Origin: Opitutia bacterium
GTDB lineage: Bacteria > Verrucomicrobiota > Verrucomicrobiia > Opitutales > Opitutaceae
DNA: 37,966 bases
Reading direction: 5' to 3'
NCBI GenBank assembly: GCA_947472765.1
Contig: CANJCM010000044.1
Span: 1 to 37,966, forward strand
The notes under the pieces were generated by a model, which did not search any database, had not been told where the DNA came from, and was given only the letters and a program-made list of their open reading frames with translations. Every line of letters begins with the position of its first letter. Position 1 is the stretch's first letter. Made by a program: the position numbers and the translations under genes. This document shows positions 4,220-37,919 of this stretch, one piece after another.

Positions 4220-4251
4220 GCCGAGCCGATCGATTTCGGACCGACAAGTCC

Positions 4252-4362
4252 CTCCGAATCCTGCCCATCCTGCGCATCCTGTCCAAAACCTGCTCGGGAA
4301 TTTCCGATCCGCTCCCAGTCCCGATCATTTGGACAGGATGGACAGGATTTTCAGGATTCGGA
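4252..4362. repeat. ACAGGATG-type word inverted repeat
   Basis: The left arm 4252-4289 is built of repeated CATCCTG units ending in TCCAAAA. The right arm 4328-4362 (TTGGACAGGATGGACAGG) is its reverse complement. The arms are separated by about 38 bases and can form a long imperfect stem. Related units occur at 4529-4566, 14572-15010, 22933-23022 and 28142-28229. Confidence 0.8.
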
Positions 4363-4382
4363 GATGAGTGTCGGCCAGCATC

Positions 4383-4458
4383 GTCGCCCGCTGCGTGAGC
4401 AGCGGGACGACGTTAATCGCAGCGATAAAGAAGTCCCTGCCGTCACCGGCAGGGCTAC
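4383..4458. repeat. REP-A inverted doublet (BIME-like), copy 1
   Basis: Hairpin 1 at 4387-4406 is CCCGCTGC-GTGA-GCAGCGGG, headed here by GTCG. Hairpin 2 at 4435-4454 is CCCTGCCG-TCAC-CGGCAGGG, followed by CTAC (a GTAG head on the minus strand). The gap between hairpins is 28 nt, as in the copies at 9676 and 37783. Relative to those copies, the innermost pair of hairpin 2 is G-C instead of C-G, a compensatory double change. Confidence 0.9.
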
Positions 4459-4528
4459 GCCGAGCCAATTAACGTCGGCCAGGAATACGACGATTGGGCC
4501 CTGGAAAAACTTCGGACCCACAAGCCCC

Positions 4529-4566
4529 TCCGAATCCTGCCCATCCTGTACATCCTGTCCAAAACC
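4529..4566. repeat. ACAGGATG-type word repeat, single arm
   Basis: A second copy of the arm seen at 4252-4289, with the same preceding words (CACAAGCCCCTCCGAATCC). The block 4196-4290 is thus partly duplicated at 4435-4566. The 478-base gap 4115-4592 consists essentially of these elements and has no gene. Confidence 0.7.
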
Positions 4567-9583: not shown

Positions 9584-9847
9584 GCTTGGGCTTCGCGCTG
9601 CGCGCGAAGCCTAAGTTTCACCGGCGGCCGGTGAAACGGGGGAGATGGTGGAGTTCCTATTCGGACTTCGAATTGGTAGCCCGCTGCGTGAGCAGCGGGA
9701 CGACGTTAAGCGAAGCGATTGAGAACTCCCTGCCCTCACGGGCAGGGCCACGCCGACTCGCTCACGGCAGCATCGACCCTATTCCCAAAAAGAATCCCTT
9801 TCACCGCCTGCGCGGTGAAAACTAGGCCGGGCGTTGCGCCCGGCCCA
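9584..9847. repeat. Nested mirror array of six hairpins (REP-A doublet inside an inverted double-hairpin unit)
   Basis: In order: hairpin 9585-9615 (CTTGGGCTTCGCG stem), hairpin 9616-9636 (TTTCACCGG-CGG-CCGGTGAAA), REP-A doublet 9676-9751 (GTAG head, CCCGCTGC-GTGA-GCAGCGGG, 28-nt gap, CCCTGCCC-TCAC-GGGCAGGG, then CCAC), hairpin 9799-9820 (TTTCACCGC-CTGC-GCGGTGAAA), hairpin 9825-9845 (GGCCGGGCG-TTG-CGCCCGGCC). The outer hairpins repeat in reverse order and orientation, so the whole gap between two convergent genes is a mirror. It may also end transcription from both sides. Confidence 0.85.
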
Positions 9848-10909: not shown

Positions 10910-10960
10910 ATGGAATGGAGTGGACCGAGAAATGCCGCGGCCCGATTGAGGCGTGGACGA

Positions 10961-11139
10961 GCGCCGGCCCTACACCGATCCGTGGACGTTCCGTCGCACG
11001 TGAGGCAGCCTTGGACGGTGGGGGCACCGTCCCTCCATGGATTGCTCTTGGAGAGGAGAGCGAACGGAAGTCTGAACGATCCGCCTACCATGGAGGGCGG
11101 GTGCCCACACCCGCCGATTTCGTTCCACTGCATCGTTCC
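10961..11139 (+). repeat. REP-D unit, copy 1
   Basis: A roughly 180-bp unit. Order: a degenerate REP-B half (GCGCCGGCCCTAC), a conserved 40-bp stretch, hairpin GGACGGTG-GGGG-CACCGTCC, then CTCCATGG, a spacer of about 47 bp, CCATGGAG, hairpin GGCGGGTG-CCCA-CACCCGCC, and a conserved 30-bp tail. Each hairpin carries a GGAG head facing inward. Other copies are at 12434, 20267 and, reversed, 31671. Confidence 0.9.
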
Positions 11140-11283
11140 CGATCAAAGACGTTCGACCGTGGCCCACCCGGCGCGGCCCGCCGACCCCACGGGATGGTTT
11201 CCTGGATTCCTACTTTGGGCCGCCAGCCGATCGGATTTATGCTTCCGCGTCGTTCGCGGGAGGGATTCTATTCTCCCCGCCCC

Positions 11284-12420: not shown

Positions 12421-12433
12421 GCCCGTGGGTGGG

Positions 12434-12612
12434 GCGCCGGCCCTACACCGATTAGTGGACGTTCCGTCGCAGGTTAGGCAGCCCTGGACGGTGGGGGCAC
12501 CGTCCCTCCATGGATTGCTCTTTGCGAGGAGAGCGAACGGAAGTCTGAACGATTCACCTGCCATGGAGGGCGGGTGCCCACACCCGCCGAATTCGTTCCG
12601 CTGCATCGTTCC
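12434..12612 (+). repeat. REP-D unit, copy 2
   Basis: Same order as copy 1: hairpin at 12486-12505, perfect 10-bp inverted repeat CCCTCCATGG (12504-12513) with CCATGGAGGG (12561-12570), and hairpin at 12569-12588. It fills most of the 315-base gap 12421-12735. With copy 1 it flanks the racemase-like gene in direct orientation. Confidence 0.9.
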
Positions 12613-12735
12613 GGCTCGAGAGCGTTGTCTTTAGAGCCGGGGTGGGTGGCTCGGCGGGTTGCGGGCACGCGCAGCGACGTGCACCGCCGTCTCTGTCCGT
12701 TCGTGGCTTCGCGATTAAATCCCGGCAGTCTGGCG

Positions 12736-14554: not shown

Positions 14555-15025
14555 CGGTTTGGACAGGACGGGTTTAGACAGGATGGACAGGATGGGCAGG
14601 ATGGGCAGGATGGAGAAGCGGAGTTCAGCCTGAATCCTGTCTATCCTGTTCATCCTGTCTAAAGACCTCCGGGCAGGTGAGTGAACTTGGATGCCTCATG
14701 CTCCCCTGAATCGAAGCGATGGCATCCGTTGTTCGGACAGGAATTGTTGGTTTAGACAGGATGAACAGGATGGGCAGGATGGAGAATCCGGAGTTCGGCC
14801 TGAATCCTGTCTATCCTGTTCATCCTGTCCAAAAACCTCCGGGAAGGTGAGTGAACTTGGATGCCTCATGCTCCCCCTGAATCGAAGCGATGGCATCCGT
14901 TGTTCGGACAGGAATTGTTGGTTTAGACAGGATGTACAGGATGGGCAGGATGGAAAAACCGGAGTTCGGCCTGAATCCTGTCCATCCTGTTCATCCTGTC
15001 CAAAACCACCGGGCAGGTGATTGAA
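14555..15025. repeat. Three tandem copies of a 171-178-bp unit containing ACAGGATG-type inverted repeats
   Basis: Units begin at GTTTAGACAGG 14572, 14750 and 14921, a spacing of 178 then 171. Each has a left arm of ACAGGATG-type words, a short centre (GGAGTTC(G/A)GCCTGAATCC), a right arm of TCCTGTC-type words, and then CTCCGGGCAGGTGAGTGAAC. A unique-looking segment (ATGCCTCATGCTCCCC onward) separates units and is itself repeated at 14693-14750 and 14863-14920. The 494-base gap 14552-15045 holds no gene. Confidence 0.9.
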
Positions 15026-20173: not shown

Positions 20174-20266
20174 GCTTCGCGAATGAAACCCGTGGCCCGG
20201 CGAAGAGCCGGTTCGGCAAGCTCACGGCCCAACGGAGGGAATCCCGGGCCCTGAGCCAGCCGAAGG

Positions 20267-20445
20267 GCGCCGGCCCGACACCGATCCGTGGACGTTCCGT
20301 CGCACGTTAGGCAGCCCTGGACGGTGGGGGCACCGTCCCTCCATGGATTGCTCTTTGAGAGGAGAGCGAACGAAAGGCTGAACGATCCGCCTGCCATGGA
20401 GGGCGGGTGCCCACACCCGCCGATTTCGTTCCACGGCATCGTTCC
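20267..20445 (+). repeat. REP-D unit, copy 3
   Basis: Same two GGAG-headed hairpins, 10-bp CCCTCCATGG / CCATGGAGGG stem and flanks as copies 1 and 2; the embedded REP-B half reads CCCGAC where the others read CCCTAC. The rest of the 649-base gap (20067-20147 and 20446-20703) shows no gene. Confidence 0.9.
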
Positions 20446-20703
20446 GGCTCCAGCGAGGATCTCCGAGATTCCGTTGAGTGGGGAAGCCGTATCGAGATCC
20501 CCTCTGGAGTGCCAAGCGAAGCGACACTCACACCGGATCTCGCGAAGCGCACAGGCGCTACGCGAAACCATTCCTGAATGGGTACCCGTCAGGGTGGGGT
20601 GTGTTGGCTCGGAGTGCGCACGGAATGCTTCCGACGTCGCTTTCATGCTCGCGCCCGTGGATTCTTCGCTGCGCTCAGAATGACAATCCCAAGTGTTTTA
20701 ATT

Positions 20704-22832: not shown

Positions 22833-23062
22833 CGGTTTAACCACGAAGGCACGAAGACACAGAGAAACCGGCGGGTTTCGGAGCGGTTGAGCCTGAGGCC
22901 AGGAATTCAGGAAGCAGACTACTGGCAGCAAACTTGGACAGGATGACAGGATTTTTCAGGATGGAGGCTTTGGCTCGAACTCCATGGCCTGAATCCTGCC
23001 AATCCGGTCATCCTGTCTAAGCTCCGAGCCTCTGTGCCTTCGTGTCTTCGTGGTTAAATCCG
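22833..23062 (+). repeat. Composite word repeat, copy 1 (about 230 bp, long terminal inverted repeats)
   Basis: The ends are inverted: GGTTTAACCACGAAGGCACG at the left and CCTTCGTGTCTTCGTGGTT near the right, about 28 bp each. Inside are GTTGAGCCTGA(G/A)... and a nested inverted pair of ACAGGAT words (22936-22964 with 22990-23020). Copy 2 at 27996-28260 has the same order and orientation. It fills the gap 22822-23118. Confidence 0.85.
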
Positions 23063-27995: not shown

Positions 27996-28260
27996 CGGTT
28001 TAACCACCGAGACACCGAGACACAGAGAGCCGGGCTGGCTCGGTGCCTCCGTGTCTGCTCGGTGGTTAAATCGCACGGTTTGGGTGGAGGAGTTGAGCCT
28101 GAAGTCAGGAATCCAGGAAGCAGACTTCGGCGCAGCAAATTTGGACAGGATGACAGGCTGTTTCAGGATGGGTGCTTTGGCTCGAACCCCTGGCCCGAAT
28201 CCTGCCAATCCTGTCATCCTGTCAAAGCTCCGAGCCTCTGTGTCTTCGTGGTTAAGTCCG
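27996..28260 (+). repeat. Composite word repeat, copy 2
   Basis: Same layout and orientation as 22833-23062, with the segment from GTTGAGCCTGA (28092) to GTTAAGTCCG (28260) clearly homologous to 22886-23062. The left end has an extra inverted word pair (TTTAACCACCGAGACACCGA / TCGGTGGTTAAA). It lies in the 435-base gap 27835-28269; the remaining 27835-27995 shows nothing. Confidence 0.85.
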
Positions 28261-31598: not shown

Positions 31599-31670
31599 GC
31601 GCAAAGGTCGGGGCGGACCAGCCAACACACCCCGGCGCTGCCGCGCCGCCTCTCTCGAGAGGCGATCGAG

Positions 31671-31828
31671 GCAGTTGGACGAAGGCGGCGGGTGTGGGCA
31701 CCCGCCCTCCATGGCAGGCGGATCGTTCAGACTTCCGTTCGCTCTCCTCTCAAAGAGCAATCCATGGAGGGACGGTGCCCCCACCGTCCAAGGTCGCCTA
31801 ACGTGCGACGGAACGTCCACTAATCGGC
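31671..31828 (-). repeat. REP-D unit, copy 4 (reverse orientation)
   Basis: Reverse complement of copies 1-3, with both hairpins and the CCCTCCATGG / CCATGGAGGG stem kept exactly. The 365-base gap 31599-31963 holds this unit, the small hairpin after HU, and no gene. Confidence 0.9.
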
Positions 31829-31963
31829 GCAGCGCCGGGGTGTGTGGCTCGCTCTCCGGGGCCTGCAACCCGGCTGGCTAACTTCGACGCAGCCCTGGTC
31901 CGACCCGCGGACCGTCACCAAAGCGCACTTGCCCGCGGGTCCCAAAGTCGGTGCGTTGCCACC

Positions 31964-37782: not shown

Positions 37783-37858
37783 GTAGCCCGCTGCGTGAGC
37801 AGCGGGACGACGTTGAGCGAAGCAATGACGAGTTCCCTGCCCTCACGGGCAGGGCTAC
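37783..37858. repeat. REP-A inverted doublet, copy 3
   Basis: GTAG 37783-37786, CCCGCTGC-GTGA-GCAGCGGG 37787-37806, 28-nt gap, CCCTGCCC-TCAC-GGGCAGGG 37835-37854, CTAC 37855-37858. The best-preserved copy, with a GTAG head at both ends. The gap 37622-37919 holds this and no gene. Confidence 0.92.
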
Positions 37859-37919
37859 GCCGAGCCGGTTCGATTTCGCATTCCCGTATTTCCTGACGAA
37901 GCCGCCACTCCCCGCCGCC

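Follow-up and report, generated by a model that had tools for sequence, protein, structure and literature searches.

What kind of sequence is REP-D, the repeat at positions 10961-11139 of the window (the whole 37,966-nucleotide stretch of DNA that was analysed), and does it move, serve the cell or encode an RNA? The window forms contig 44 in a genome of 4.97 Mb assembled into 157 contigs, with which 26 congeners were compared. Our answer is that REP-D is a RAYT-linked REP doublet with an unusual tag and orientation that has expanded in one lineage, and we infer the step by which it spread. In the window, its copies and their parts are placed as follows.

10961..11139, + strand: REP-D copy 1, core and arms, placed by alignment.
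10961..11012, + strand: left arm of copy 1; a GTAG doublet contributes its right half (GCGCCGGCCCTAC) as the first part.
11013..11036, - strand: REP unit b of copy 1, GGAG tag and stem GGACGGTG/CACCGTCC; tag and stem also occur beside the RAYT gene.
11037..11091, + strand: the 55 bp between the tags of copy 1 (ATGG, spacer, CCAT), with a subfamily-dependent spacer.
11092..11115, + strand: REP unit a of copy 1, GGAG tag and stem GGCGGGTG/CACCCGCC; an identical unit occurs beside the RAYT gene.
11116..11139, + strand: right arm of copy 1, the start of an inverted end, which other copies carry at greater length.
12434..12612, + strand: REP-D copy 2, units at 12486-12509 (-) and 12565-12588 (+).
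20267..20445, + strand: REP-D copy 3, units at 20319-20342 (-) and 20398-20421 (+).
31664..31838, - strand: REP-D copy 4, reversed, units at 31687-31710 (-) and 31766-31789 (+).

The preliminary description had proposed four near-identical copies, each with two 8-4-8 hairpins and inward-facing GGAG tags, and both claims are borne out. The copies lie where it placed them and are 90-94% alike: in ungapped comparison with 10956-11144, identity is 91% for 12429-12617 and 94% for 20262-20450, and 31664-31838 on the minus strand is 90-91% complementary to the other three. Each copy has the same order of parts, namely hairpin b (GGACGGTG-loop-CACCGTCC), CTCC, 55 bp, GGAG and hairpin a (GGCGGGTG-loop-CACCCGCC). 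A 24-base probe with at most 3 mismatches finds eight sites in the window, which are both hairpins of the four copies, against 0.00 expected from 100 shuffles.

Four copies is the count for the window and understates that of the genome, where pattern searches find 103 tags-inward GGAG pairs and 395 GGAG-tagged hairpin units (196 + 199), with no match to the reversed-pattern control in either case. The perfect stem around CCATGG holds in part and is not general, as CTCCATGG...CCATGGAG are both exact at 57 genome places (reversed-pattern control 0) versus 103 pairs; exact CTCCATGG pairs at short range, 8-36 bp apart, number zero. The bounds 10961 and 11139 do mark the end of agreement among the window copies, but many copies elsewhere extend beyond them on both sides. 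GGAG units have three types of stem, a, b and c (GGCCGGTG), and among the matches listed the tags-outward pairs are mostly of types a and c and 63-128 bp long. A 438-kb sample, consisting of the window (a selected part) and twenty 20-kb stretches, contains 32 units: 12 stand singly, and the others form 6 tags-outward pairs and 4 tags-inward pairs, the latter all within the window. This strict count divided at least one diverged tags-inward copy (L155) that belongs to the 82 copies described below.

These 82 copies were obtained from 114 loose matches, filtered by a required hairpin context. Variation among them is lowest in the hairpins, with heterozygosities of 0.000 and 0.006 in the tags and 0.018 and 0.030 in the stems, compared with 0.10 and 0.15 in the loops, 0.21 in the spacer, 0.37 in the left arm and 0.21 in the right arm. 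The 8-bp stems are perfect in 72 (b) and 70 (a) of the 82, and the pair spans exactly 79 bp in 68. Subfamilies can be distinguished in which the spacer and left arm vary and the hairpins are kept. Flanking sequence differs in all 82 copies, and the longest flank common to any two of them is 206 bp on the left and 133 bp on the right. Large segmental duplication is therefore rejected: the preliminary description had said that copies confined to larger duplicated segments would refute its mobile-element reading, and the copies are not so confined.

Among the genomes searched, REP-D is restricted to one species. The unit pattern occurs at 5, 2 and 1 sites in three of the 26 congeners (8 units in total) and at none in the other 23. 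In a search of related genomes, which the preliminary description had suggested, with at most 14 candidate places scored per genome, the full element is unmatched in 56 of 56 relatives, and three of them have hairpin matches of 24-30 bases only. One orthologous gap could be compared, that of copy 1, because synteny with the relative G010 looks one-sided or broken for copies 2-4. G010 keeps the racemase-like gene (82% identical; gene names here are readings of translations) and the left neighbour (72% DNA identity over 492 bp), and REP-D is absent from the gap of about 1 kb that lies between these flanks. What fills that gap, by eye, is other sequence together with a GGAG pair whose stems are different. 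Of the two causes that had been offered for the similarity of the copies, recent spread or homogenisation, species restriction favours spread. In one copy (L025), as read from alignments, the left arm belongs to one subfamily and the spacer to another, which hints that copies may also exchange sequence.

Could a cellular function, such as a role in transcript ends, RNA stability or the binding of a nucleoid protein or gyrase, keep these repeats alike and in place, instead of spread? Genomic context offers this reading some support. With genes predicted by a home-made codon-usage caller and overlaps counted above 20 bp, the core overlaps a predicted gene in none of the 82 copies. The claim that all copies are intergenic thus stands for the core and fails for the arms of three copies (L044, L221 and L223), which a predicted gene end enters by at most 41 bp. 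The 75 copies that could be classified lie in 25 convergent, 40 tandem and 10 divergent gaps, versus 51, 186 and 49 among 286 background gaps; convergent gaps are enriched both by count (Fisher p 0.006) and by length (p 0.016). The part of PMC3733652 that deals with their placement likewise describes REPs as extragenic and enriched between convergent genes. Several observations nonetheless argue against a purely cellular role. Divergent gaps come out as depleted when length is considered (p 0.003), though not when gaps are counted (p 0.49), and orientation within the tandem gaps is even (20:20). The subfamilies differ in spacer and arm, and the element is both unmatched in the 56 relatives at the depth of scoring given above and absent at the one orthologous site. 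We consider this reading very unlikely.

The preliminary description had also allowed for a structured RNA. As RNA, REP-D folds better than shuffled sequences on both strands (z -2.5 on the plus strand and -2.1 on the minus strand), but its DNA fold also beats shuffles (z -3.0), because palindromes must fold in this way. No Rfam family matches the window at gathering score, and for the 82 rows the covariation term from RNAalifold is 0.01, with two-sided change at 1 of 19 consensus pairs. Together with the 20:20 orientation, these results leave the RNA claim unsupported, and we reject a discrete structured RNA as extremely improbable.

A more serious rival follows from the sequence around the core. 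On the right, 74 of the 82 copies have an inverted end (around TTCCACTGCATCGTTCCGGCTCGAGAGGGG, with its complement on the left), and a left inverted copy of it occurs within 400 bp in 30 of the 82, at 143-147 bp in 12. Right flanks of many copies agree up to about +70-80. REP-D could accordingly be a classical MITE, with REP hairpins as cargo and outer inverted ends that an unrelated transposase recognises. In the 438-kb sample, five of the six right-end motifs adjoin a REP-D core, which would suit a MITE, and three of these five are the window's own copies. Yet 52 of the 82 copies are without a recognisable left end within 400 bp, and conservation is higher in the tags and stems than in the right arm. 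Moreover, ten copies on the left and nine on the right have at most 20 nt in common with any other copy; with the hairpin feet at 12, the left-hand ten share at most 8 nt past the foot of hairpin b. We regard a MITE as improbable, though less so than either a cellular function or an RNA. A separate palindromic target for REP-D insertion, which the inverted ends had suggested, was rejected on the same five of six motifs. Because of that adjacency we take the inverted ends, on thin evidence, as part of the element, and they slightly lower our confidence in the REP/RAYT reading.

The window holds other repeats as well. A second doublet family (GTAGCCCGCTGCGTGAGCAGCGGG...) has outward-facing GTAG tags and lies at 9676-9759 and 37783-37866 (also 4383-4466), with 87% identity to the reference copy; the outward tags can be read in the sequences at 9676 and 37783, and 4383 reads GTCG. 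Repeats of the AATCCTGTCCATCCTGTTCATCCTGTC type are found at 14611-15007 with a spacing of 170-171 bp, and also at 4235-4566, 22925-23044 and 28132-28250. The left half of a GTAG doublet is present in all 12 copies with a fixed-distance left end, its right half at the usual place in 9 of them and the right inverted end in 11. In window copy 3 (20267..20445), the GTAG half and the left inverted end lie farther out on the left side. The longer mosaic consists of the left inverted end, a GTAG doublet, the left arm, the GGAG doublet and the right inverted end, in this order; its simplest explanation is that nested elements were copied as one. By eye, the outermost piece of some copies (e.g. L036 and L010) reads ACCCCG-hairpin-CACCCCTCT, with a stem that varies among copies yet remains self-complementary (GCCC/GGGC, GGCGC/GCGCC); this piece is perhaps a further REP-like unit.

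A candidate enzyme for a REP doublet is encoded in the same genome. Of seven Y1_Tnp genes, one (locus L051, contig C32) has REP-D units on both sides. Its product matches NCBIfam NF047646 (REP-associated tyrosine transposase, RAYT) with 99.5 bits, above the cut-off of 80, and aligns with the E. coli RAYT 4er8 (E=8.6e-9) such that the HVH motif and the tyrosine match up. The locus therefore pairs a Y1 HUH transposase of the RAYT family with the same REP type on both sides, as in a REPtron. Three b/a pairs are present, divided two to one between the sides of the gene. Their unit a matches that of REP-D exactly, and their unit b keeps the REP-D stem but differs by one base in the loop in two of the three pairs. 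Beside the other six Y1_Tnp genes, no REP-D units were found in the available flanks (three loci end at contig ends). A second RAYT of the genome (L271, the same as L052, G000:C37:21213-21503) has GTGG tags-outward pairs on both sides (GTGGCACGGGTC...).

We think it probable that REP-D is a non-autonomous REP/RAYT element, composed of two inverted GGAG hairpins in a tags-inward ('TT') doublet and spread in trans by the C32 RAYT. This HUH/Y1 transposase would read the GGAG hairpins as single-stranded DNA and would carry REP-D in trans into intergenic DNA. We infer that it cuts and joins at the hairpins, that the moving unit is the doublet, with the arms as passengers, and that movement was recent. 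The proposal of a non-autonomous mobile element, made earlier from the window, is supported: there are 103 pairs, no large duplication, no match to the full element among the 56 relatives as searched, and a RAYT with the same hairpins. Some features count against the REP/RAYT reading. At the RAYT locus, the flanks consist of tandem tags-outward a...b units of about 87 bp with about 20 bp between successive units, which leaves just some 20 bp between inward-facing tags instead of 55. The spacer and arms are conserved beyond the needs of a bare doublet, and low stem diversity could instead come from gene conversion or a recent burst. Finally, the tags of REP-D face inward, whereas doublets with reported excision are said to carry theirs outward.

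The GGAG tag itself extends beyond this genome. Scanning out to 500 bp from RAYT loci (80 in number, the best 80 of 240 relatives) shows GGAG to be the commonest four-mer 5' of a perfect hairpin of at least 7 bp, at 18 of the 80, ahead of GTAG at 17 and GTGG at 1. GGAG hairpins also accompany related RAYTs, where the stems are different but self-complementary, and a congener RAYT (L253, G003:C68) has three tags-outward GGAG pairs of 69 bp around it, their stems different again (GGCGCTGC, GGCTGCGC). Tags differ even within one genus: set against L245 and L247, of which L247 carries GGAG hairpins, the loci L246, L248, L249 and L251, whose RAYTs are 54-59% identical to that of L051, have GTAG hairpins, and L246 also GTGG. 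Tags were assigned by the author from hairpin scans, and L074, L079, L120, L246 and L259 show more than one. The 39 GGAG-labelled loci, 35 of them with a match, have 148 units, and in none of these does GT[A/G]G stand three bases farther out, as in the Pseudomonas layout. T is the majority base before GGAG in 27 of the 35 GGAG-labelled loci with a strict hairpin, so a degenerate NTGG with AG after it is a possible alternative reading of the tag. We prefer GGAG, as the first base of NTGG is not conserved.

Tag class follows the RAYT tree. For 40 chosen RAYT rows, 36 of them with a tag and 4 without, the tree requires 4 changes of the GGAG label compared with 13.7 when labels are shuffled, and residue 109 fully separated 18 GGAG from 17 GTAG rows (L068, identical to L247, left out). 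A first rule, by which F, Y, Q or T at 109 means GGAG, was correct for 20 of 23 rows in a first held-out set (24 further tagged loci, of which L047 was unalignable). Its misses were two GGAG loci (L125, with a weak tag call, and L127, with E at 109) and one GTAG locus with T. A second held-out set comprised 51 untagged loci scored with looser hairpins, E having been added after the first set; L052 in it is L271 of the first. Rows with Q, F, Y, T or E at 109 gave 16 GGAG, 0 GT[A/G]G and 4 ties, and the rest 2, 18 and 11, respectively (Fisher 4e-8). A rule that was refined after these tests predicts GT[A/G]G where H at 108 is combined with any 109 residue but F, Y, Q or E, and it holds for 84 of 87 rows.

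On a tree of these 87 rows (39 GGAG, 48 GT[A/G]G; excluding ties, L047, L265, L266 and any row shorter than 100 residues), which has many open forks, three tag changes suffice, one of them L125 with its weak tag. So few changes are needed that the rows are far from independent. The other changes fit two gains of GGAG, or one gain and later returns; the two GGAG groups differ at the key residues (F/Y versus mostly Q), which would suit two origins. The association of 108/109 with the tag, as judged from these alignments, thus rests on about two events; the L051 RAYT has HF at these positions and its GTAG relatives have HI. Residues 108/109 of the L051 RAYT align with 101/102 of the E. coli enzyme, at the known tag-contact segment, for which the relevant part of PMC8266576 discusses Q95, D100 and R104 and that of PMC6006769 W94, Q95, E100, H101 and R104. 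The latter also gives H101 as sometimes R in RAYT subclasses with typical GT[A/G]G REPs, which disfavours residue 108 alone as the tag determinant; L261 and L262, with R at 108 and a GTAG tag, agree. We offer one joint reading tentatively, since as a whole it is somewhat more apt to fail than to hold: GGAG may be a large second RAYT/REP tag class, about as common as GTAG around the sampled RAYTs; residues 108/109 may set the tag and have changed at least twice, also between congeneric species; and REP-D may be a tags-inward GGAG transposition unit with a captured GTAG doublet. It is weakened by the atypical REPs already reported, by the NTGG alternative and by the two events.

REP-D bears on hairpin recognition by RAYTs and on the change of tags in REP families. 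The relevant sections of PMC8266576 report that the E. coli RAYT tolerates no tag change and that the S. maltophilia RAYT barely cuts GCAG; a natural switch of the second base therefore offers a pair for swapping one or two residues. Since the final two bases of the tag stay the same, the model in that paper would predict a cut at CT. Congeneric RAYTs that are 54-59% identical, GTAG-flanked versus GGAG-flanked, provide a ready comparison, and a hundred-copy, species-restricted expansion lets tags-inward versus tags-outward movement be asked.

REPs are defined in part of PMC3686654 by a 5' tetranucleotide GT[A/G]G. REP-D departs from this definition in its almost invariant GGAG tag and agrees with it in the palindrome downstream of the tag (8-bp stems) and in being numerous and almost only intergenic; its 103 tags-inward pairs are two close inverted REPs, as in a REPIN. 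In the tag definitions and lists of PMC3686654 and PMC2817692, which give GT[A/G]G, no word starts with GGAG, and GGAG is likewise missing from the main texts of PMC3733652 and PMC6006769. Among the matches listed, judged by title, no description of a GGAG REP/RAYT class was found. In the part of PMC6006769 that sets out its search, GT[A/G]G was scanned by rule, and other, weaker structures that lack this consensus were found by eye in subclass 2.6 and class 3. These atypical REPs resemble REP-D in flanking a RAYT, in lacking GT[A/G]G and in having copies elsewhere in the genome. By their description there, they are set apart by weaker structure and NH[LIV]H or NHVH motifs, as opposed to the perfect stems of REP-D and the DHVH of its RAYT; their hosts are mainly Bacteroidetes (2.6) and Planctomycetes, Acidobacteria and Proteobacteria (class 3). 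Some of them may nevertheless overlap with the GGAG class.

The closest known systems are the REPIN or REP doublets with their RAYT, the REPtron, as portrayed in parts of PMC3116915, PMC8266576 and PMC6006769. They share with REP-D an inverted pair of tagged hairpins, high copy number, extragenic location, a RAYT flanked by the same hairpins and a tag and stem that are best conserved; excision of a REP doublet is reported in the first of these. REP-D differs in its GGAG rather than GT[A/G]G tag, in tags that face inward, mostly with 55 bp between them, and in extra conserved arms. The passages of PMC3733652 on dimers describe GTAG-tagged TT dimers, including GTAG-19 of O. terrae, that are likewise tags-inward and occur in a REP-rich Verrucomicrobium. 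Unlike REP-D, the partners of GTAG-19 are 1-2 bp apart and TT dimers have, by rule of thumb, variable spacers; the degenerate tags listed there are GYAG, GYRG, GTRG, GTMG and GTGG, and GGAG is not among them. The same source places a REP dimer inside a longer inverted repeat in A. variabilis GTAG-15 and H. neapolitanus CGTC-1, as in REP-D, which differs from both in having doublets of two tag classes side by side between its inverted ends.
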